Origin: an uncultured Bacteroidaceae bacterium
GTDB lineage: Bacteria > Bacteroidota > Bacteroidia > Bacteroidales > Bacteroidaceae
Direction: 5' to 3'
Assembly (NCBI GenBank): GCA_944320785.1
Contig: CALUIR010000028.1
Coordinates: 1 to 34,294, forward strand
Length of the DNA: 34,294 bases
The notes under the pieces are model-generated. The model had not been told where the DNA came from. It saw only the letters and a list, made by a program, of their open reading frames with translations, and did no database searches. Of this stretch, positions 3,444 to 14,538 are shown in pieces; the stretch's first letter is position 1; each line of letters opens with the position of its first letter. The position numbers and the translations under genes were made by a program.

Positions 3444-4612
3444 TGTATAAGTTCTCCTTTCTTAAAAAATATAGGTAAAGTCCACGTGGATTCCCGATAT
3501 GCTCCTTTTCCGTAATAATTGATGGTAGGCATCCAGCGTGGCATCTTTCTAATGATTTCCAATACTTGGTTGTCCCAATCCTGTATGCCGCAGCTTCGCA
3601 GGACTTTGGCTTCATACACTTCTCCATACGAATCAATCCGTACCGTGTAGATGCCTCTCATTTGTTGTTTATCGCCCAATAATGCAGGGTCATACTTTAA
3701 GTGTTGGGTGATGTAGTTTTGAGCAGACCACGGTTTTCCGTCTTGAAAAGAAGAAACAGCTTCCCATTCTACAAAACAATGTTTCAGATCTTCTTCCGCG
3801 ATACTGTCCGCCTTCACCCTGTCTCGGTAGTGTTGTGGCAGGAAAGGCACATAGACCGTATAGCGACATTCCATCCGCTTACCGTCCTTGTCCCTGCATG
3901 GCAGGCAATGCGGCAATTCTTTGGTCAGCCGGATAACCTCTTTGTCGAACTCTTTATGGATGGATATCAAGATATTGATGCCGCGTGGCAGCCCTAATGT
4001 GTCGATAGAAAACATGACTGTGGAATATCCGGCTTGGTTTCTCTCCAAGAGTTCCTCAGGATAAACCATCTGTGAAGTGAAATATTTTTCCAAGTCATAA
4101 TCCCATTTTGCCCATCGGGGCGGCTCTATGGCAGACAAGTCTTTGATTGGCTTCCCCGACATATCTAAAACGCCCAAGTTCCAACTGATTTCCGCACGCC
4201 AAATGCTGTCCAAACGGTTTTCATTCTTCCGTTGTCCTTGCGGACTGTTGTCCGTCACGCATCTGACAGGACCAACGCCAATAGTCAGCGTGTCGGGCAG
4301 GTATTGAAAAACCAATGTGCTGTCGGTCAGTTCTTGGACAATGTAATTTTTCCCCGATTCAAAGACTTTGATTGTATCTCCGCATAGAGAATATGAATAA
4401 AAAGTTTCTTTTCTTTTTCCACCCTGCAAAAACGCGCTTCTCCATACGGCATCGCGAAATTCCATTTCTATAACGTATTGCTTGTCTTGGGGTAATTGCA
4501 CTTTCCATATCTTATTTTCCAGCAATGCAGACATATCCGCACAGTTGTTATTCTGGGCGGGAAGCCCGGCTATAACAGTCCATGAAAGCAATATGAACAA
4601 AAACTTTTTCAT
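3440..4612 (-). CDS. Secreted protein with two TonB C-terminal-like domains
   Basis: 390 residues with a signal peptide (MKKFLFILLSWTVIAGLPAQ). A lipocalin-like or META-like N-terminal portion (about 25-110) is followed by two copies of a TonB C-terminal-type fold. The first (about 180-265) has FTSQMVYPEELL followed by GYSTVMFSIDTLG; the second (about 300-388) has ITQHLKYDPALL followed by GIYTVRIDSYGEV, VLRSCG and MPRWMPTINYYGK. TonB proteins normally have one such domain plus an inner-membrane helix; this protein has two and a cleavable signal. It may be a periplasmic or outer-membrane-associated TonB-like protein rather than an energy transducer. It is first in the operon with the SecD-head lipoprotein (4-bp overlap) and the SIMPL protein, and has a well-formed promoter at 4636-4667. 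Confidence 0.75.
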   Translation of the reverse strand: MKKFLFILLSWTVIAGLPAQNNNCADMSALLENKIWKVQLPQDKQYVIEMEFRDAVWRSAFLQGGKRKETFYSYSLCGDTIKVFESGKNYIVQELTDSTLVFQYLPDTLTIGVGPVRCVTDNSPQGQRKNENRLDSIWRAEISWNLGVLDMSGKPIKDLSAIEPPRWAKWDYDLEKYFTSQMVYPEELLERNQAGYSTVMFSIDTLGLPRGINILISIHKEFDKEVIRLTKELPHCLPCRDKDGKRMECRYTVYVPFLPQHYRDRVKADSIAEEDLKHCFVEWEAVSSFQDGKPWSAQNYITQHLKYDPALLGDKQQMRGIYTVRIDSYGEVYEAKVLRSCGIQDWDNQVLEIIRKMPRWMPTINYYGKGAYRESTWTLPIFFKKGELIQ

Positions 4613-4635
4613 AATCTGTCATCCTAATGGTACTT

Positions 4636-4667
4636 CAAAGATAACGAAAAGGAATAACCTAATCAAT
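4636..4667 (-). promoter_or_regulatory. Bacteroidota-type promoter of the TonB-like operon
   Basis: On the minus strand: ATTG (-33, 4664-4667), a 20-nt spacer, then TATCTTTG (-7, 4636-4643), 23 nt before the ATG at 4612. This matches the TTTG-N19/21-TAnnTTTG consensus with one mismatch at -33. Confidence 0.65.
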
Positions 4668-5025
4668 TATTAGACTACTCCTTTCCCGTTAGGTTTAAGC
4701 AAACGTTCTTTTCCTTGCTGCCGTTCGCATAGAACAGCACGCGAAATGTGCTACTTGTCATATTCGTTCATTTTGGTTACTAAACTACAACTCGACTGGT
4801 TAAACCTTGAAAAGAAATCTACGCAAAACGGTACAAACGAAACGGAGAGGGTTAAATCTGTACTTTTATCGGGTAACGGATAAGGAACCGTTCTTCTGCT
4901 TCAATCCGCTTAGGAACGGTTTTCGGCCCTCTGCCCTACTTCCGTAATTTCCTCCTAACTGCTTAATCTTCAATTTCAAATTCGCATTTCTGCCAAAATT
5001 CAGTGGATATTCCACAAATTTTGAG
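4668..5025. other. Divergent intergenic region, little recognisable
   Basis: Gap between divergent operons. I see no coding frame of note and no tRNA. One hairpin is possible at 4886-4921 (AACCGTTC with GAACGGTT, loop about 20 nt), and a short dyad GTGGA-TAT-TCCAC lies at 5003-5015, about 10 bp upstream of the rlmN -7 element. Neither has independent support. Confidence 0.4.
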
Positions 5026-5033
5026 TATGTTTG
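5026..5033 (+). promoter_or_regulatory. -7 element upstream of rlmN
   Basis: TATGTTTG matches TAnnTTTG and is 32 nt before the ATG at 5066. A convincing -33 TTTG is not seen. This would serve the eight-gene run from rlmN to myo-inositol-1-phosphate synthase. Confidence 0.45.
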
Positions 5034-5065
5034 CAAAATAATTCCAATCTTCAAGATTCTTGCGA

Positions 5066-6082
5066 ATGGATAAATTGCTGGGGATGACATATGGGGAGTT
5101 GCAACGGGTGGCAAAAGATTTGGGCATGCCGGGCTTTGCGGCGAAACAAATGGCCGCTTGGTTGTATGACAAGAAGGTTTCATCGATAGACGAGATGAGC
5201 AATTTGTCATTGGCTTTTCGTGAACGTTTGAAGGCGGATTATGAGTTAGGCGCTTCAGCCCCTGTGAATGCCGTTCGTTCGCAGGACGGCACTGTGAAAT
5301 ATCTTTTTCAAGTGTCCGAAAAGGATTTTGTGGAGACCGTCTATATCCCGGAGGATGGCAGGGCTACCTTGTGTGTGTCTTCGCAAGTTGGATGCCGGAT
5401 GAACTGCAAGTTCTGCATGACGGGCAAGCAGGGCTTTTCTTCCAATTTGGATGCGAACCAGATTTTGAACCAGATTTATTCCGTCCCGGAACGGGACAAA
5501 CTGACGAATATCGTGTTCATGGGCATGGGGGAACCGTTAGATAACCTGGACGAATTGTTGAAGGTGTTGGAGATATTGACGGCGGGGCATGGATACCGAT
5601 GGAGCCCGAAACGCATCACTGTCTCCACGGTAGGGGTGCGGAAGACGTTCCGCCGTTTTATTGAACAGGCTTCCTGCCATGTGGCTGTGAGCCTGCATTC
5701 GCCTTTCCCAGCCCAAAGGGCTTTGCTGATGCCGGCTGAGAAAAGTTTCTCTTTGACGGAAATCATTGATGTTGTGCGAGATTATGACTTCAGCAAGCAA
5801 CGCCGCCTCTCTTTTGAATACATCCTTTTCAAGGGTGTGAACGACAGTTTGATTTATGCAAAAGAAGTGGTCAGGATTTTGAAGGGAGTGCCTTGCCGGG
5901 TAAATCTGATTCGTTTCCATGCGATTCCGGGTGTGGAATTGGAAGGCGTTGGCATGGACACCATGCTGGCGTTCCGGGATTATCTGACGAAACATGGCGT
6001 TTTTGCCACGGTCCGTGCTTCGCGTGGAGAAGATGTTTTTGCGGCATGCGGCATGCTTTCCACGTTGCGGCAGGAAGAATGA
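5066..6082 (+). CDS. rlmN: 23S rRNA (adenine-2503-C2)-methyltransferase RlmN
   Basis: 338 residues, normal for the family. A radical SAM enzyme that methylates C2 of A2503 in 23S rRNA (and A37 of some tRNAs), acting on nascent ribosomal RNA in the cytoplasm. The [4Fe-4S] cluster motif CxxxCxxC is at about Cys110/114/117 (GCRMNCKFC). The two catalytic cysteines are visible: Cys103 (LCVSSQ) and the C-terminal AACG Cys at about 328. GMGEPLDN and the N-terminal RlmN helical domain are also present. The frame is open from a TTG at 5060, but I prefer the ATG at 5066 (MDKLLGMTYGEL). First gene of the run that leads into pdxA and the inositol-lipid genes. Confidence 0.96.
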   Translation: MDKLLGMTYGELQRVAKDLGMPGFAAKQMAAWLYDKKVSSIDEMSNLSLAFRERLKADYELGASAPVNAVRSQDGTVKYLFQVSEKDFVETVYIPEDGRATLCVSSQVGCRMNCKFCMTGKQGFSSNLDANQILNQIYSVPERDKLTNIVFMGMGEPLDNLDELLKVLEILTAGHGYRWSPKRITVSTVGVRKTFRRFIEQASCHVAVSLHSPFPAQRALLMPAEKSFSLTEIIDVVRDYDFSKQRRLSFEYILFKGVNDSLIYAKEVVRILKGVPCRVNLIRFHAIPGVELEGVGMDTMLAFRDYLTKHGVFATVRASRGEDVFAACGMLSTLRQEE

Positions 6083-7202: not shown

Positions 7203-8300
7203 ATGGAAGATAATAGGAAAATCAAAGTAGGCATTGCACATGGTGAAATCAATGGCATCGGTTATGAAGTGATTTTGAAGACTTTTTCAGAACCATTGAT
7301 GTTGGACTTGTGTACACCTATTATATATGGTTCGCCCAAGATTGCGGCTTATTACCGCAAGGCGTTGGAATTGCCTGCCAATTTTGGGATCGTGGCTTCT
7401 GCTTCGGAAGCATCACACAATAGGCTGAACATAGTGAATTGCGTGGAGGACGAGGTGAAGGTAGAATGCTCGAAGCCGACGCAGAAGACAGGCATGGCGG
7501 CTTTGCAGGCATTGGAGACGGCAGTGGCTGAGTATGAAGCAGGATTACTGGATGTGCTTGTGGCGGCGCCGATGAGCATGAACCTTTTGCAATCGGATGA
7601 GTTCCATTTCCGCGCACATTCAGAGTATGTGGAAGAAAGGCTTTCCCGCAAAGGGGATGCCTTGACGATCTTGTTGGGCGGAGGCCTTCGGATTGCCTTG
7701 GCTACCGAACACATCCCGTTGCGCGAGGTAGCTTCGTCTCTGAGCATTGATTTATTGAAAAGCAAGCTGTTGGCTTTCCAGAAGTCATTGCAATATGATT
7801 TTGGCATCAATGCGCCGCGCATTGCAGTCCTGTCATTGAATCCGCATGCCGGTGAGGGCGGCCTGATGGGAAAGGAGGAAGAAGAAATCATCTGCCCGGC
7901 TATCCGGCAAATGATGAATGAAGGCATGCAGTGTTTCGGCCCTTATCCGGCAGACGGCTTGATAGGTTCCGGAAATTACGCCCTTTTTGACGGCATATTG
8001 GCCTTGTACCATGACCAAGGTTTCCTTCCTCTCAAGGCTTTGTCAGAAAGTGGCGTGGTATATACGGCCGGATTGCCAGTGGTGCTGACATCGCCGGCGC
8101 ATGGCATCGCTTGCGATATTGTAGGGCAAGGGGTTGCCCGGGAGGATTCTTTCCGCCAAGCGGTGTATGATGCCATTGATGTGTACCGCAGCCGTATCCG
8201 CGAGAAACAGATTCGTGTGAACCCGCTTCAAAAACAATATTACGAGAAGAAGGATGATAGTGACAAACTGAAGCTGGACACGGTGGACGATGACGTATAA
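7203..8300 (+). CDS. pdxA: 4-hydroxythreonine-4-phosphate dehydrogenase PdxA
   Basis: 365 residues. NAD-dependent oxidation and decarboxylation of 4-phosphohydroxy-L-threonine in the DXP-dependent route to pyridoxal phosphate. The three metal-binding histidine sites of PdxA are present: FRAHSEY, LNPHAGE and YHDQGFLPLK. The N-terminus (KVGIAHGEINGIGYEVILKTF) corresponds to the family's GDPAGIG-type loop, with Glu-Ile-Asn replacing Asp-Pro-Ala. The C-terminus extends about 25 residues past the family core with a charged tail. Followed after 17 bp by the nucleotidyltransferase of the inositol cluster, so the genes are probably co-transcribed. Confidence 0.93.
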   Translation: MEDNRKIKVGIAHGEINGIGYEVILKTFSEPLMLDLCTPIIYGSPKIAAYYRKALELPANFGIVASASEASHNRLNIVNCVEDEVKVECSKPTQKTGMAALQALETAVAEYEAGLLDVLVAAPMSMNLLQSDEFHFRAHSEYVEERLSRKGDALTILLGGGLRIALATEHIPLREVASSLSIDLLKSKLLAFQKSLQYDFGINAPRIAVLSLNPHAGEGGLMGKEEEEIICPAIRQMMNEGMQCFGPYPADGLIGSGNYALFDGILALYHDQGFLPLKALSESGVVYTAGLPVVLTSPAHGIACDIVGQGVAREDSFRQAVYDAIDVYRSRIREKQIRVNPLQKQYYEKKDDSDKLKLDTVDDDV

Positions 8301-8317
8301 AGGGTAATTTTCTTCAA

Positions 8318-9028
8318 ATGAAATATGCGATTATAGCTGCCGGAGAAGGTTCCCGGTTGTTGAAAGAAGGTGCTTCCCGTCCTAAGCCTTTGACTCTTGT
8401 GAATGGCGTGGCGATGATTGAGCGCCTGATACGGGTCTTTATAGGCAATGGCGCATCCTCCATTGTTGTCGTCATAAACCAAGCGAGCAGTGAGGTGGAC
8501 GCTTTTTTGCGCTCTTTGCAGCGGGAGGGTTTGCCTTTGGAGATTGTCGTGAAAACGACGCCTAGTTCCATGCATAGCTTCTATGCGTTGTCTCCTTTGT
8601 TGGAAGGGGATGATTTTTGCCTGACGACCGTGGATACGATATTCAAGGAAGATGAATTTTCTGCCTATGTCAAGGCGTTCCGGTCTTCGCAGGCAGACGG
8701 GTACATGGCTGTCACGGATTATGTGGATGATGAACGCCCGCTGTATGTTGCTACGGATGAGAATCTGCATATCAAGGGTTTCCATGACGAGGTGGACGGG
8801 AATTGCAAGTTTGTTTCGGGGGGCGTTTATTGTTTGCGCCCTTCTTCGTTGGAGGTGTTGGCCGGATGCGTGGCGGAAGGCATGTCGCGTATGCGGAATT
8901 TCCAAAGGGAATTGGTGCGGCAAGGCGCAGACCTTGTGGCCTATCCTTTTACGAAGATATTGGATGTGGACCATGTGGCTGACATTGTGAAAGCAGAGCG
9001 TTACCTGGCCGGAAAAAACATATTGTGA
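8318..9028 (+). CDS. Sugar-nucleotidyltransferase-like protein of the inositol-lipid cluster
   Basis: 236 residues, a single NTP_transferase (GT-A-like) domain. The nucleotide-binding signature AAGEGSRL (residues 7-14) is followed by RPKPL with the substrate-loop Lys23, and a metal-site Asp lies in LTTVDTIF. Such enzymes join an NTP to a phosphorylated sugar or alcohol and release pyrophosphate. It lies between pdxA and four genes for inositol-lipid synthesis and overlaps the next gene by one base (TGATG). Candidate substrates are inositol-phosphate or another head group. The related bifunctional IPCT/DIPPS enzymes of thermophiles use exactly this domain to make CDP-inositol, but nothing in this sequence proves the substrate. 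Confidence 0.8.
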   Translation: MKYAIIAAGEGSRLLKEGASRPKPLTLVNGVAMIERLIRVFIGNGASSIVVVINQASSEVDAFLRSLQREGLPLEIVVKTTPSSMHSFYALSPLLEGDDFCLTTVDTIFKEDEFSAYVKAFRSSQADGYMAVTDYVDDERPLYVATDENLHIKGFHDEVDGNCKFVSGGVYCLRPSSLEVLAGCVAEGMSRMRNFQRELVRQGADLVAYPFTKILDVDHVADIVKAERYLAGKNIL

Positions 9029-9891
9029 TGAAGATTCCCATGCTTGGTGTCAGCAGAGGCGGACGTTATTCCCCGAACCATGTGGATAATGATGCCGCCA
9101 TATTTGAGGCGGTTTGCCGGGAGTTGCAGTGTTTGGGTGGCGACGTGCTTGCATGCGCGGAAGATGAATTTGCCGGTTCTTGCTTTTCGGGCAAAACGGT
9201 GTTCGGCATGCCCCGGAGCCGGGAAGCTGTTTCCCGCCTCGAAGCGTTGGAACGTCAGGGATCGTTGGCTGTGAATTCCGCTTCCGGGATACGGAATTGC
9301 CGACGTGAGCGATTGACGCAACTTTTCGTGTCCCATAAAGTTCCTTGCCCGGCGAGTGAAATCCTTGTAATGCGTGAAGGGGGCTTCGTTATGCCATCTT
9401 TGGATTTTCCATATTGGGTAAAGCGGGGCGATTCGCATGCCATGGTGAAAGAAGACGTGTGTTTTGTGGCATGCCGGGAAGATGCAGAAGCGGTGCTTTC
9501 TGATTTTGCCACCCGAGGCATCTGTTCTGCGGTTGTCAATGCGCATTTGCCGGGAGATTTGGTGAAATTCTACGGAGTGGCCGGTACTGGTTTCTTTTAT
9601 TGGTTTTATCCTTCTTCCTGTTCGCACAGCAAGTTCGGGTTGGAAGCCATCAACGGGGAAGCGGAAGGCATTCCTTTTGATGCATTGGATTTGCAGAAAA
9701 CCTGTGACCGTGCGGCTGCTGTTCTGGGCTTGGTTGTTTATGGCGGGGATTGCATTGTCGGGAAGGATGGGCAAATCCGGATTATTGATTTTAATGACTG
9801 GCCGAGTTTTGCCCCTTGCCGGGATGCGGCGGCGCGTAGCATAGCCGGTTATATTTACGGGCAAGCATTAAAGAAGTGGCAAGATGGATAA
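9028..9891 (+). CDS. ATP-grasp family ligase of the inositol-lipid cluster
   Basis: 287 residues. Start chosen at the ATG overlapping the previous stop (TGATG, 9026-9030); a GTG at 9025 is possible. The ATP-grasp fold is indicated by the central lysine and glycine-rich region (WVKRGDSHAMVKED), the acidic loop VVNAHLPGDLVKFYGV, and the C-terminal Mg-binding strand IIDFNDWPSF with its Asp-x-Asn pair. The N-terminal part has the usual RNCRRERLTQLF helix before the first lysine. ATP-grasp enzymes form amide or similar bonds via an acyl-phosphate. The substrate here is unknown. It overlaps the phosphatidyltransferase gene by 8 bp, so coordinated expression is very likely. Confidence 0.78.
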   Translation: MKIPMLGVSRGGRYSPNHVDNDAAIFEAVCRELQCLGGDVLACAEDEFAGSCFSGKTVFGMPRSREAVSRLEALERQGSLAVNSASGIRNCRRERLTQLFVSHKVPCPASEILVMREGGFVMPSLDFPYWVKRGDSHAMVKEDVCFVACREDAEAVLSDFATRGICSAVVNAHLPGDLVKFYGVAGTGFFYWFYPSSCSHSKFGLEAINGEAEGIPFDALDLQKTCDRAAAVLGLVVYGGDCIVGKDGQIRIIDFNDWPSFAPCRDAAARSIAGYIYGQALKKWQDG

Positions 9892-10840
9892 AGATTCTTT
9901 TCGCAAAGGAGTGGAAGCGTCCTTGAAGTCGCTGGATACGGAGGAGCCGATTGACATTTATTTCTATCGCCCTTTGGGCTACCGTTGCGCTCTGGGCTTT
10001 GCGCGTTGGGGCGTGCATCCCAATGTCGTCACGATTATCTCCATTGTCATTGGCGTGGCTTCCGGGGTGTTCTTCTATTTTGATGCATGGTGGTTGAATT
10101 TGGTCGGTATTCTTCTGCTGGTGTGGGCGAATGTGTACGACAGCACGGATGGGCAGTTGGCGCGGATGACCGGGAAGAAGACTTTATGGGGGCGTTTGCT
10201 GGATGGCTTTGCCGGCGACTTGTGGTTCTTCTCAATTTATTTCTTTATTTGCCTTCGTTTCACGATGTCGCATGATTGGGAAAGTGAGCGGTGGCAAATA
10301 TTGTCTGTTTGGCTGATGGCCGCTTTTGCGGGTTTCATTTGCCATAGCCGGCAATGTTCTTTGGCGGATTATTACCGTAATGTCCATTTGTATTTCCTGA
10401 AAGGAAAGGAGGGCAGTGAATTGGATACTTTCAAGCAACAGCGTGCCTTGTTCCATGCTACTCCTTGGAAGCATCATTTTTGGTGGAAGCTGTGGTTGTA
10501 CTTTTATGGCAACTATACACGCTTGCAGGAGTCGATGACACCTGAATTCCAGCGGCTTATGTCGCTCGTGAGAGAAAGATACGGTGATGACGTGCCGGAT
10601 TCTTTCCGGAATCGTTTCCGCGAATTGAGCAAACCCTTGATGGTGTATGCCAACATATTGACATTCAACACTCGTTCGATTGCGCTTTTCATATTGCTTT
10701 TGGCAGGAATGCCTTGGTGCTATTTCGTGTTTGAGATTACGGTGATGAACGTGCTGTTTTTCTACATGCGCTATCGTCATGAGAAATTTTCTTCCATGCT
10801 GTATGCCCAGTTGTCTAAAGAAGGGGAAGCAAATGGCTGA
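9884..10840 (+). CDS. CDP-alcohol phosphatidyltransferase, probable phosphatidylinositol-phosphate synthase
   Basis: 318 residues, long for the family (about 200), with several hydrophobic segments and a middle soluble insertion (about 175-235). The CDP-alcohol motif is clear: Asp86, Asp89-Gly90, Ala93-Arg94, Gly103, Asp107. The last Asp is Asp112, which leaves four residues after Asp107 instead of the canonical three. The expected reaction is CDP-diacylglycerol plus inositol-1-phosphate giving phosphatidylinositol phosphate at the inner membrane. The assignment rests on its position two genes before myo-inositol-1-phosphate synthase and one before the HAD phosphatase, the arrangement described for Bacteroides inositol-lipid synthesis. 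Ceramide-based acceptors are an alternative. Confidence 0.85.
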   Translation: MDKDSFRKGVEASLKSLDTEEPIDIYFYRPLGYRCALGFARWGVHPNVVTIISIVIGVASGVFFYFDAWWLNLVGILLLVWANVYDSTDGQLARMTGKKTLWGRLLDGFAGDLWFFSIYFFICLRFTMSHDWESERWQILSVWLMAAFAGFICHSRQCSLADYYRNVHLYFLKGKEGSELDTFKQQRALFHATPWKHHFWWKLWLYFYGNYTRLQESMTPEFQRLMSLVRERYGDDVPDSFRNRFRELSKPLMVYANILTFNTRSIALFILLLAGMPWCYFVFEITVMNVLFFYMRYRHEKFSSMLYAQLSKEGEANG

Positions 10841-10852
10841 TGTTTTTGGGAA

Positions 10853-11581
10853 ATGAGGGATGTTATGAATAAATTGCCAGACATACAAGGAATCATATTT
10901 GATTTTGGGGGAACCCTTGATACCAATGGATGCCATTGGTCGGAAGTGTTGTGGAACAAATACGTGGAGTGCCGTGTCCCGGTGGACAAGGAAACGTTCA
11001 AGGCGGCTTATGTGCATGGGGAAAGGGCTTTGTCTTCACAACCCCTCATCAAGAATAGTGACGGCCTTTATGAGGTGTTGCATGTGAAAGCGGGACTTCA
11101 AGTCGCTTACTTGTTGGCTCAAGGCTTCTTGGATGAGGCTGCTGCTGGAGGACTTCCGGAACGGATAGCACGTGCGGCTTACGCCTATGCGTGCGACATG
11201 CTCCAAAAGTCCCGCCTTGTGGTTGAAAAGTTGTATTCGCAACATAAATTAGTGCTTGTTTCAAACTTTTACGGGAATATTGAAACAATCCTTAGCGATT
11301 TTAGCTTACTTTGCTTTTTTGAAAGAGTCATAGAATCGGCTGTCGTCGGAATTAGGAAGCCAGACCCGGCTATTTATCAGCTAGGTGTGGAGGCATTGGC
11401 TTGCCCGTCCGGGAACATAGCCGTGGTCGGTGATTCGTTCAGGAAAGATATGATACCGGCCAAAGCATTAGGGTGCAAGGCCGTATGGCTGCGGGGCATC
11501 GGTTGGGACGAGGACACCGATGACTCGTTGCCGGATGTGATTATTTCCAGTATAGATCAATTGCCTGAAGTCATAATATAG
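10853..11581 (+). CDS. HAD-family phosphatase, probable phosphatidylinositol-phosphate phosphatase
   Basis: 242 residues. HAD motif I is FDFGGTLD with nucleophile Asp17; the second Asp of the usual DxD is Gly19. Motif II is LVLVSNFYG, motif III is VGIRKPDPAIY (Lys), and motif IV is VVGDSFRKDM. A helical cap (about 25-100) separates motifs I and II. Loss of the Asp+2 acid/base occurs in other HAD phosphatases with a DxGGT loop, but it may indicate unusual kinetics. By context it would dephosphorylate phosphatidylinositol phosphate to phosphatidylinositol. ATG at 10853 or 10865 could be the start. It sits 12 bp after the transferase and 44 bp before MIPS. Confidence 0.8.
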   Translation: MRDVMNKLPDIQGIIFDFGGTLDTNGCHWSEVLWNKYVECRVPVDKETFKAAYVHGERALSSQPLIKNSDGLYEVLHVKAGLQVAYLLAQGFLDEAAAGGLPERIARAAYAYACDMLQKSRLVVEKLYSQHKLVLVSNFYGNIETILSDFSLLCFFERVIESAVVGIRKPDPAIYQLGVEALACPSGNIAVVGDSFRKDMIPAKALGCKAVWLRGIGWDEDTDDSLPDVIISSIDQLPEVII

Positions 11582-11625
11582 AGATATGTATCAATAAGTG
11601 TTTTGTTCGAAAGATAGAAATAGAA

Positions 11626-12933
11626 ATGGAAAAAGTAAATGTTAAACCGGCAACCGGGAAACTGGGTGTGCTTTGCGTAGGGTTGGGAGCGGTTACTTCT
11701 ACCTTCATGACGGGAGTGCTGATGGTTCGAAAAGGACTTTCCAAGCCTGTCGGGTCGATGACGCAATACGACAAGATACGCGTGGGGCGTGGAAAGGACA
11801 AGCAATACAAGCATTACGGGGAGATTGTCCCGTTGGCTGGCTTGGACGATTTGGTATTTGGCGCATGGGACGTGTATCTGGTCAATGCATTTGAAGCGGC
11901 TGTCAATTGCGAAGTGCTGAAGGCGAAAGACATTCTTCCTGTGAAAGATGAACTGGAGAAGATAGTGGCCATGGAGGCCGCTTTCGACCATGACTATGCA
12001 AGCCGTCTGGACGGCACGAACGTGAAGGCATGCAAGAGCCGTTGGGAAATGGTGGAGCGGTTGCGGGAAGACATCCGCAACTTCAAGGAAACCAATGGGT
12101 GTGAACGGATTGTGGTGATTTGGGCGGCTTCTACCGAGATTTATGTCCCTGTAAACGAGAAAGTCCATGGCTCATTGGCGGCATTGGAGCAAGCGATGAA
12201 GGAGGATGACCGGAAGCATGTGGCTCCTTCCATGTGCTATGCATACGCTGCGTTGTCGGAAGGTGCGCCTTTTATTATGGGAGCGCCCAACACGACGGTG
12301 GATATCCCGGCTATGTGGGAATTGGCCGAGAAGGTGAAGCTGCCCATTGCGGGGAAAGACTTCAAAACGGGCCAGACATTGGTGAAATCAGGCTTTGCCC
12401 CGATTATCGGCACCCGTTGCTTGGGGCTTTCCGGCTGGTTCTCAACCAATATATTGGGAAACCGCGACGGGCTTGTGCTGGACGAACCAGCCAATTTCCA
12501 TACGAAAGAAGTCAGCAAGTTGTCAACATTGGAGTCTATCCTTGTGCCGGAGAACCAGCCGGATTTATATACAGGCTATTACCACAAAGTTCGCATCAAC
12601 TATTATCCTCCCCGCAATGATAACAAGGAAGGGTGGGACAATATCGATATTTTCGGTTGGATGGGCTATCCCATGCAAATCAAGATAGACTTCCTGTGCC
12701 GGGATTCGATATTGGCGGCGCCATTGGTGCTTGATTTGGTGTTGCTGAGCGATTTGGCGGCACGTGCCGGGCGTTATGGCATCCAGCGTTTCTTGAGTTT
12801 CTTCTTGAAGAGCCCGATGCATGACTATACGGAAGGCGAGGTGCCTGTCAACCATCTGTTCCAGCAATACGTCATGCTGAAAAATGCCATCCGGGAGATG
12901 GGAGGCTATGAGGCAGATGAAGAGATAGATTAA
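11626..12933 (+). CDS. myo-inositol-1-phosphate synthase (MIPS)
   Basis: 435 residues. Converts D-glucose-6-phosphate to 1D-myo-inositol-3-phosphate (equal to L-inositol-1-phosphate) using NAD as a recycled cofactor. An N-terminal Rossmann loop GVLCVGLGAVTST (about residues 14-26) and family blocks VIWAASTEIYVPV, GAPNTTVDIPAMWELA, IAGKDFKTGQT and STNILGNRDGLVL match the Ino1 family; GKDFKTGQT contains the conserved catalytic lysine region. The last gene of the run; a strong terminator follows 16 bp after the stop. It supplies the head group for the transferase upstream. Confidence 0.95.
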   Translation: MEKVNVKPATGKLGVLCVGLGAVTSTFMTGVLMVRKGLSKPVGSMTQYDKIRVGRGKDKQYKHYGEIVPLAGLDDLVFGAWDVYLVNAFEAAVNCEVLKAKDILPVKDELEKIVAMEAAFDHDYASRLDGTNVKACKSRWEMVERLREDIRNFKETNGCERIVVIWAASTEIYVPVNEKVHGSLAALEQAMKEDDRKHVAPSMCYAYAALSEGAPFIMGAPNTTVDIPAMWELAEKVKLPIAGKDFKTGQTLVKSGFAPIIGTRCLGLSGWFSTNILGNRDGLVLDEPANFHTKEVSKLSTLESILVPENQPDLYTGYYHKVRINYYPPRNDNKEGWDNIDIFGWMGYPMQIKIDFLCRDSILAAPLVLDLVLLSDLAARAGRYGIQRFLSFFLKSPMHDYTEGEVPVNHLFQQYVMLKNAIREMGGYEADEEID

Positions 12934-12949
12934 AGATGCTGTCGCAGGC

Positions 12950-12985
12950 AAACGGGGCGGGAAGATGCCTTCCCGCCCCGTTTTT
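12950..12985 (+). terminator. Strong intrinsic terminator of the rlmN-MIPS operon
   Basis: A perfect GC-rich stem, AAACGGGGCGGGAAG with its complement, closes on the loop ATGC (12965-12968). The right arm ends in TTTTT at 12981-12985. It starts 16 nt after the MIPS stop. Confidence 0.93.
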
Positions 12986-13027
12986 GCTGATGGGTAAAAG
13001 CCGTTGGGGCATTTGCCGGTTGGCGGC

Positions 13028-13043
13028 CGGGCATTTTTGCCCG
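13028..13043. other. Small hairpin CGGGCA-TTTT-TGCCCG
   Basis: A perfect 6-bp GC-rich stem with a TTTT loop, located between the operon terminator and the 22-bp repeat array. It may belong to the array's folding or be a separate element. Confidence 0.35.
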
Positions 13044-13057
13044 CATTTCCGTTCATG

Positions 13058-13189
13058 CTTCCCAAAGAGGTTGCCGGAACCTCCCAAAGGTTTTTGAAAA
13101 GCCTTCCAATGTTTGGGGCAAAACTTTCCAATGTTTTTGAAAATCTTCTAAGAACTTTTTCGGAAGGTTCGTAGAGGGTTTGCCGGAGG
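13058..13189. repeat. Degenerate tandem array, six units of about 22 bp
   Basis: Six consecutive imperfect units, at 13058-13079, 13080-13101, 13102-13123, 13124-13144, 13145-13167 and 13168-13189 (22, 22, 22, 21, 23 and 22 bp). The core of the better copies is CTTCCAAnGTTTTTGAAAA. Many units start with CTTCC-like and end in GGAA-like sequence, so adjacent units form inverted repeats across their junctions. No long conserved frame runs through it. It lies in the 375-bp gap between the terminator (12985) and the promoter of the sigma-54 activator gene (13260). Confidence 0.65.
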
Positions 13190-13259
13190 CATGGGATGTT
13201 CTTTTTGTACCCACCGTCCCCTTTGCCGCCGGAATAAAACGATTTGTTGATTCGGCATT

Positions 13260-13289
13260 TTTGTTTTCCATGTATTTGTTGTACTTTTG
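13260..13289 (+). promoter_or_regulatory. Promoter of the sigma-54 activator / lptE / secG operon
   Basis: TTTG (13260-13263), 18-nt spacer, TACTTTTG (13282-13289), 19 nt before the ATG at 13309. Both elements match the Bacteroidota housekeeping consensus; the spacer is one base shorter than usual. Confidence 0.6.
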
Positions 13290-13308
13290 TCAGGCTAAAC
13301 ATTTCATA

Positions 13309-14538
13309 ATGAATAACGCAGAAGTTCAACAAGTGAAGCAACGGTTCGGCATTATCGGCAATACGGAGGCATTGAACCGTGCGATAGACATTGCTATCCA
13401 AGTGGCTCCTACGGATTTGTCGGTGCTGATAACCGGCGAGAGCGGAGTCGGCAAGGAGAGTTTCCCGCAAATCATCCATCAATACAGCCGCCGCAAGCAC
13501 GGGCAATACATTGCGGTGAATTGCGGCGCGATTCCCGAAGGCACGATTGATTCTGAATTGTTCGGGCATGAGAAAGGGGCTTTTACCGGCGCGGTGAGCG
13601 ACCGGAAAGGGTATTTTGGCGAAGCCGACGGAGGAACGATTTTTTTGGATGAGGTGGGCGAATTGCCTTTGTCAACGCAAGCGCGTTTGCTGCGTGTCTT
13701 GGAATCGGGAGAATTCATCAAAGTCGGTTCATCGAAAGTGCTGAAGACAGACGTGCGGATCATTGCAGCCACGAATGTGAACCTTGCCGCCGCCATTGCG
13801 GACGGGCGTTTCCGGGAGGACTTGTTTTACCGTCTGAACACAGTGCCTATCAGAATCCTGCCATTGCGTGAAAGGGCGGACGACATCGTGTTGCTGTTCA
13901 GAAAATTTGCTTCTGATTTTGCAGAGAAGTATCGCATGCCTGCCATTCAGTTGACGGAAGATGCCAAGAAGTTGCTGACAGGCTATCCTTGGCCGGGGAA
14001 CGTCCGCCAGTTGAAAAACATTACCGAACAGATTTCCATTATAGAAACCAACCGGGAAATAACCTCTGAGATACTTCGGAATTATTTGCCGGAGCAGAAT
14101 GCACAGCGTTTGCCGGCTTTGTATGGAAGCAAGGCGGACAAGTCGTTCGGCAGCGAGCGGGAGATTCTTTACCAAGTCTTGTTCGACATGCGGCAAGATG
14201 TGACAGAGTTGAAGAAACTGGTGCATGGCATCATGGAGGAGCGGGGGATGAAGAACGATGCGCCATCGGTGACTTATTATCCCCGGCATGAAGGATTCGT
14301 GGAGTCCGATGCTGTGCCTACGACTATCAACATTCCGGCAAAACCGGACAAGGAGGCGGGCGAGACGCCTGATTCTGCCGAATACGTGGAAGAATCCTTG
14401 TCGCTGGACGAGGTGGAGAAGGAAATGATACGGAAAGCGTTGGAAAAGCATCATGGCAAGCGGAAGAATGCGGCTAAGGATTTGAACATATCAGAACGGA
14501 CGTTATATAGAAAAATCAAGGAATATGGGTTGGACTAA
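13309..14538 (+). CDS. Sigma-54-dependent transcriptional activator without a receiver domain
   Basis: 409 residues. The AAA+ sigma-54 interaction domain starts almost at the N-terminus (about 15-250): Walker A GESGVGKES, the GAFTGA loop that contacts sigma-54, Walker B FLDEVGELP, and the NVRQLKN sensor region. After a variable linker the C-terminus has a Fis-type helix-turn-helix (KNAAKDLNISERTLYRKIKEYG). No response-regulator receiver, GAF or PAS domain precedes the AAA+ module, so activity must be controlled otherwise, for example by a partner protein as for PspF. The ATG at 13309 follows the promoter at 13260-13289; the frame is open upstream but that stretch reads as non-coding repeat. 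It overlaps lptE by 14 bp. Confidence 0.92.
   Translation: MNNAEVQQVKQRFGIIGNTEALNRAIDIAIQVAPTDLSVLITGESGVGKESFPQIIHQYSRRKHGQYIAVNCGAIPEGTIDSELFGHEKGAFTGAVSDRKGYFGEADGGTIFLDEVGELPLSTQARLLRVLESGEFIKVGSSKVLKTDVRIIAATNVNLAAAIADGRFREDLFYRLNTVPIRILPLRERADDIVLLFRKFASDFAEKYRMPAIQLTEDAKKLLTGYPWPGNVRQLKNITEQISIIETNREITSEILRNYLPEQNAQRLPALYGSKADKSFGSEREILYQVLFDMRQDVTELKKLVHGIMEERGMKNDAPSVTYYPRHEGFVESDAVPTTINIPAKPDKEAGETPDSAEYVEESLSLDEVEKEMIRKALEKHHGKRKNAAKDLNISERTLYRKIKEYGLD

Follow-up and report, generated by a model that had tools for sequence, protein, structure and literature searches.

What does an ATP-grasp enzyme do in a bacterial gene cluster for inositol lipids? This question is raised by a contig of an uncultured Bacteroidaceae bacterium (CALUIR010000028.1, positions 1 to 34,294; hereafter the window), in which five plus-strand genes at 8318..12933 encode, in order, a nucleotidyltransferase (NTP), an ATP-grasp enzyme, a CDP-alcohol phosphotransferase-like membrane protein (CDP-AP), a HAD hydrolase and MIPS. 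The sequence confirms these five genes as listed in a first-pass annotation, together with the overlaps of 1 bp (NTP/ATP-grasp) and 8 bp (ATP-grasp/CDP-AP) reported there; gaps of 12 bp and then 44 bp follow downstream. Pfam models assign four of the five proteins, the exception being the ATP-grasp protein.

Two types of inositol-lipid cluster are distinguished in Bacteroidetes in the main text of PMC9246714, and the 'alternative' type has NTP, CDP-AP and HAD near MIPS. The same text puts forward a Kennedy-type scheme, unconfirmed there and repeated in a review (PMC10191378), in which NTP of this type would synthesize CDP-inositol. The window carries this alternative type. The first-pass annotation had instead read MIPS, CDP-AP and HAD as a three-step route needing neither NTP nor ATP-grasp; this does not hold, because the cluster type is an alternative to that route, which is the one of Bacteroides thetaiotaomicron. 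Its other proposal, that NTP makes a nucleotide-activated head group, is most likely correct and, in the form of CDP-inositol synthesis, was already in print (PMC9246714). Here we report that the ATP-grasp gene is a core member of the inositol-lipid pathway, and that its product is, judging from sequence, most likely a kinase of a new kind that prepares the inositol head group.

The ATP-grasp gene is inherited with, and fused to, its neighbours

Among 151 genomes of the window's family, CDP-AP was found in 105, NTP in 95 (here and below, among the matches listed) and ATP-grasp in 92, after removal of CDP-AP matches weaker than 1e-30, NTP matches weaker than 1e-40, and the RimK-like ATP-grasp matches of G009 and G037 (E 1.7e-5). 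NTP is present in all 92 genomes with ATP-grasp, so that ATP-grasp never occurs without it, and ATP-grasp is present in 92 of the 95 genomes with NTP; the three exceptions (G128, G140, and G122, at a contig end) all lack CDP-AP. Of the 92 genomes with ATP-grasp, 91 also have HAD, the miss being G085, whose CDP-AP is cut at a contig end, and 91 of the 94 HAD genomes have ATP-grasp, leaving three with HAD and no ATP-grasp. NTP and ATP-grasp are thus not often absent from clusters, and the part of the first-pass interpretation that placed both in the pathway stands. The genes are also close together: no more than 300 bp separate NTP from ATP-grasp in 82 of 92 genomes and ATP-grasp from CDP-AP in 87 of 91, and all three are contiguous in 79.

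The same neighbours recur in 80 named loci, the best 80 of at least 571 confirmed loci, where NTP (78), CDP-AP (76), HAD (73), MIPS (48) and a flippase-like gene (25) are found near ATP-grasp, and several of the partner misses fall near contig ends. In addition, fusions occur between successive genes. Within the 80 named loci, NTP and ATP-grasp are fused in five and CDP-AP and HAD in four. Among other loci read, L160 encodes a 516-aa NTP/ATP-grasp fusion (3822-5372), L158 a CDP-AP/HAD fusion; L154 encodes a 601-aa ATP-grasp/CDP-AP fusion, and L153 a single 827-aa protein joining NTP, ATP-grasp and CDP-AP. Because it is co-inherited with NTP and HAD and fused to its neighbours, the ATP-grasp gene is a core member of the pathway.

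A replacement of part of the cluster points in the same direction. Fourteen genomes have CDP-AP with neither NTP nor ATP-grasp; MIPS and HAD are missing as well from 13 of these, and both are present in G133. An IspD-like cytidylyltransferase stands beside CDP-AP in eight of the nine such loci read (L189, L190, L191, L192, L193, L195, L196 and L201), the exception being L194 of G133. The IspD-like assignment is based on an NCBIfam score for the L019 gene, from the same genome as L189, and on matches to the L191 gene for the others. In L190 and L191 the IspD-like version occupies the same chromosomal slot (rlmN, pdxA ... sigma-54 activator) as the inositol version. These loci likely make a different CDP-alcohol head group, and since the swap comes without an ATP-grasp partner, NTP, ATP-grasp and HAD act as a set specific to inositol.

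A kinase-like metal motif on a fold shared with ligases

The ATP-grasp gene spans 9028..9891 on the plus strand, counted from ATG 9028 (an alternative GTG lies at 9025), and its product belongs to an unnamed family, which we propose to be a cyclitol (inositol) kinase from its fold, co-occurrence and fusions. It has no Pfam match at E 0.001, and 25 family rows including it gave only stray matches (E >= 0.015). PF08443 (RimK) matched one of these 25 members (E 0.11) and not the window protein; the PF08443 matches of its own genome sit on contigs other than the window's. Likewise, PF05770 (ITPK) has no match in this genome at E 0.001 and is absent among the families of the 25 scanned members.

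The predicted model (predicted local distance difference test score, pLDDT, 93.8) has an ATP-grasp fold overall, and its top structural matches are LysX/ArgX/RimK. A Protein Data Bank (PDB) search with the single sequence gave no meaningful match, and a profile search gave weak ones, the best being the ligase PsnB (7drm, E 0.0042), followed by the inositol-phosphate kinases of the ITPK type (E 0.019-0.65). PsnB is an ester-forming ligase. In sequence, the closest relatives found are about 490 aa long and RimK-like. The fold does not separate kinase from ligase.

The metal-binding loop is more informative. The C-terminal loop carries D-x-N (D254-x-N256 in IIDFNDWPSF, codons 9787..9795), as do three ITPKs, whereas all 11 readable RimK-like relatives have E-x-N; by this comparison, the metal motif is kinase-like. 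D-x-N was one of the search patterns for the 80 named loci, and its count there is not used as evidence. Every ATP-grasp copy aligned (25 rows and 20 distant copies) has D241, D254, N256, K132 and K180. Bacteroidota members of the ITPK family, tried as a reference set, were rejected: they were found in three of 296 genomes, all below the cut-off and with E-x-N by eye.

Residue 63 changes with head-group genes in distant relatives

A sample of 16 regions from distant Bacteroidota extends the picture. Nine of them (L141-L144, L146-L149 and L218) contain one kind each of aminotransferase and dehydrogenase; in L144 these are a class-III aminotransferase (Pfam) and a Gfo/Idh/MocA dehydrogenase, whose best NCBIfam match, inositol 2-dehydrogenase, scores 68, below the cut-off of 355. 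An MlaE-type permease occurs in eight of the nine. MIPS was detected in each of the ten f17, f34 and f35 genomes examined, but not in G340. One genome, G181, carries both an aminotransferase-type cluster (L141) and a plain inositol-type cluster (L222).

Arg63 of the window protein (codon 9214..9216, by arithmetic from ATG 9028) is replaced by Gln in all nine ATP-grasp copies adjoining an aminotransferase, and an upstream tandem copy, where present, retains Arg63 (4/4). The seven regions without aminotransferase have Arg63 in six cases and Gln in one (L150). The association has a Fisher value of 0.0009, from a simple test that ignores kinship. In the tree, L148, which has Gln and an aminotransferase, is nested with support 0.93 among copies that have Arg and no aminotransferase, so that the most parsimonious history has two or more changes from Arg to Gln; support at some deeper nodes is weak (0.7-0.8). 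Because Gln63 tracks the aminotransferase, residue 63 would lie near the cyclitol, and the pattern suggests that the ATP-grasp enzyme binds and acts on the cyclitol itself.

IolG acts on free inositol. If the IolG-like dehydrogenase of these clusters does so too, the resulting amino-inositol would need phosphorylation before NTP can use it, and ATP-grasp is the only remaining ATP enzyme without an assigned role there. An amine-bearing head group is thus plausible where distant relatives encode an aminotransferase together with an inositol-dehydrogenase-like protein, and clusters with aminotransferase, IolG-like and MlaE-type genes are candidate makers of amino-inositol lipids. Taken together, we tentatively propose, as a possibility short of an even chance, that these ATP-grasp proteins form a bacterial family of cyclitol kinases that is new and separate from the inositol-kinase families known so far, and that they work fused to or beside the CDP-cyclitol synthase; in some distant Bacteroidota, a Gln63 paralogue would phosphorylate amino-inositol made by the IolG-like dehydrogenase and class-III aminotransferase, leading to undescribed phospho-inosamine membrane lipids with Mla-like export.

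A proposed Kennedy-type route with its missing kinase

With moderate confidence, we read the cluster as a Kennedy-type route to inositol (sphingo)lipids in which the ATP-grasp protein would be the missing kinase. It would phosphorylate the cyclitol ring with ATP and so provide the phosphate that NTP activates with CTP; CDP-AP would then transfer phospho-inositol to ceramide or diacylglycerol, and HAD would take off a phosphate. Two orders are conceivable: either HAD frees inositol from inositol 3-phosphate (Ins3P) and ATP-grasp re-phosphorylates it, or ATP-grasp gives an inositol bisphosphate and HAD trims the lipid last. In some distant relatives, the dehydrogenase and aminotransferase would convert inositol to amino-inositol ahead of the kinase step.

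We favour a kinase because ATP-grasp is co-inherited with NTP and HAD and fused to its neighbours, because of the D-x-N motif and the Gln63 pattern, and because, according to PMC7618535, Ins3P (the MIPS product) is a substrate of the ATP-grasp kinase ITPK1. The lipid assignment is supported by B. vulgatus, the reference species of the alternative cluster, in which phosphoinositol dihydroceramide (PI-DHC) was confirmed by high-performance liquid chromatography-mass spectrometry, a result that does not exclude decorated forms (PMC9246714).

MIPS (11626..12933, plus strand; PF07994 and PF01658, and the survey) would supply Ins3P. It occurs together with ATP-grasp in 80 of 92 genomes, and 22 genomes have MIPS without ATP-grasp. 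The other 12 hold the cluster without detected MIPS (completeness 79-99%), which imported inositol together with a kinase would explain. All 12 retain HAD, suggesting that HAD does more than free inositol from Ins3P.

This HAD hydrolase (10853..11581, plus strand), from Pfam, motifs and co-occurrence likely the pathway phosphatase, has motifs II-IV. The typical HAD phosphatase motif I is DxDx(T/V), with a second Asp. In the window it reads D-F-G-G-T (10901-10915), and D-x-G-G-T, with Gly for the second Asp, occurs in all 17 aligned HAD rows.

If the kinase proposal is true, the Kennedy-type CDP-inositol route becomes complete and can be tested with a single purified protein, the retention of the gene wherever the pathway occurs is explained, and bacteria have an ATP-grasp inositol kinase of their own. 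The amino-inositol variant, if true, would bring a class of head group new to membrane lipids.

Other roles for the ATP-grasp protein

The strongest competitor, though an unlikely one, is a RimK-like ligase that links an amino acid or another acyl group, by an amide or ester bond, to the inositol head group or to a precursor of it, yielding a decorated lipid. The LysX/ArgX/RimK structural matches, the RimK-like nearest relatives and the PsnB profile match all fit such a ligase, the aminotransferase-bearing clusters could supply an amine, and the sole NCBIfam match of the protein is the MptN ligase, at a sub-threshold 18.3 bits (cut-off 350); these points weigh against a kinase. However, the metal motif has D for E, no gene for making an amine was seen in the window cluster, and the L144-type aminotransferase occurs in none of the 80 named loci. 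A decoration step should also sometimes be lost while NTP is kept, but only the three genomes named above show this, and they lack CDP-AP as well. PI-DHC, with the limit given above, was seen in B. vulgatus. On these grounds, the amide-linked decoration offered in the first-pass annotation is doubtful for the window, and a kinase is here more likely than an amide-adding ligase.

It is more improbable still that NTP takes Ins3P directly and that the ATP-grasp protein is a helper without head-group turnover, such as a scaffold or regulator, or phosphorylates the lipid acceptor. The scheme in the main text of PMC9246714 needs no ATP-grasp step, and fusions would suit scaffolding too, but the five invariant residues are those expected of a working enzyme and the R63Q change tracks head-group genes. 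Finally, a soluble product of the di-inositol phosphate type is very improbable: CDP-AP and NTP do resemble the corresponding hyperthermophile (DIPP) enzymes, whereas flippase-like genes accompany the cluster in 25 of the 80 named loci and 15 of the 16 distant regions (none lies between the window's genes), MlaE/MlaD-like genes are present in distant clusters, and PI-DHC occurs in B. vulgatus and P. veroralis, both carriers of the alternative cluster type (PMC9246714).

The remaining cluster genes and their surroundings

NTP (8318..9028, plus strand; PF00483 and PF12804) is likely of the CTP:inositol-phosphate cytidylyltransferase type, which makes CDP-inositol. Its PDB matches are 4jd0 and 2xme, the latter a CTP-inositol-1-phosphate cytidylyltransferase, and R13, K23 and D106 correspond, by motif position, to the critical R16, K26 and D112 of Thermotoga maritima IMPCT. 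The NCBIfam equivalog NF041135, a model describing a bifunctional protein, gave 39.6 bits (cut-off 580).

CDP-AP (9884..10840, plus strand) would pass CDP-inositol to lipid, an assignment drawn from Pfam (41.8 bits, cut-off 22), PDB, structure and VIA, and motif. By sequence it resembles enzymes that use polar CDP-alcohol donors. It carries D1xxD2GxxAR...GxxxD3 of the CDP-alcohol phosphotransferase signature, and the fourth Asp (D4, four residues past D3) is Gly111 (10214-10216), with an Asp one position on. The same Gly is found in 124 of 127 motif matches in the fetched loci (among them L182, a different transferase), mostly followed one position later by Asp (103) or Asn (17). D4 is the likely catalytic base, and its change from D to N nearly abolishes activity, according to PMC4634129. 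The mechanism or acceptor of this CDP-AP may differ.

A pdxA-like gene (7203-8300) ends 17 bp upstream of the cluster, is possibly co-transcribed with it, and adjoins it in many relatives. The neighbourhood scanned (7203-14538) comprises PdxA, NTP, ATP-grasp, CDP-AP, HAD and a sigma-54 activator.

Comparison with known systems

The closest known system is the alternative cluster of B. vulgatus (BVU_RS13095/13105/13115), with which the window shares NTP, CDP-AP and HAD near MIPS and to whose class it belongs. According to PMC9246714, this type is the probable, though unconfirmed, origin of the inositol sphingolipids of Prevotella and B. vulgatus. The main text of that paper, figures and supplements apart, does not name the ATP-grasp gene. 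In Phocaeicola, each of the seven loci inspected runs NTP, ATP-grasp, CDP-AP, flippase-like, HAD; this order fits the spacing of the tags BVU_RS13095-13115, so by synteny we infer that BVU_RS13100 is the ATP-grasp gene, and no paper naming it was found. The window differs in having no flippase-like gene between CDP-AP and HAD. PMC9246714 assigns HAD the role of PI-DHC synthase, which our reading does not adopt. The cluster itself has thus been described as putative; in the open-licence literature, supplements apart, we found neither ATP-grasp as an obligate member, nor the amino-inositol-type extension, nor any bacterial ATP-grasp inositol kinase or inosamine lipid.

With B. thetaiotaomicron BT_1522-1526, the window has MIPS and an inositol lipid product in common. 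That route, with its phosphatidylinositol phosphate (PIP) intermediate, uses CDP-diacylglycerol, myo-inositol phosphate and a PgpA-like phosphatase (PMC9246714). By contrast, the window CDP-AP is not a BT1523-type PIP synthase (NCBIfam PIPSynBT1523, 22.7 bits, cut-off 350), and neither a PgpA-like phosphatase nor an AUR1-like synthase was found beside MIPS within the scanned neighbourhood.

Among ATP-grasp enzymes, the likeness to ITPK/PPIP5K kinases is limited to fold, motif and weak profile matches, with no PF05770 match; the RimK/LysX ligases provide the best fold match and the nearest relatives, from which the window protein differs by D for E in the metal motif and by the lack of a PF08443 match. 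The hyperthermophile CDP-inositol enzymes (IPCT, AF2299 and DIPPS) share homology and fold with the window NTP and CDP-AP, to which the window adds a kinase-like ATP-grasp protein and a CDP-AP without the fourth signature Asp, and many of its relatives add lipid-export genes.
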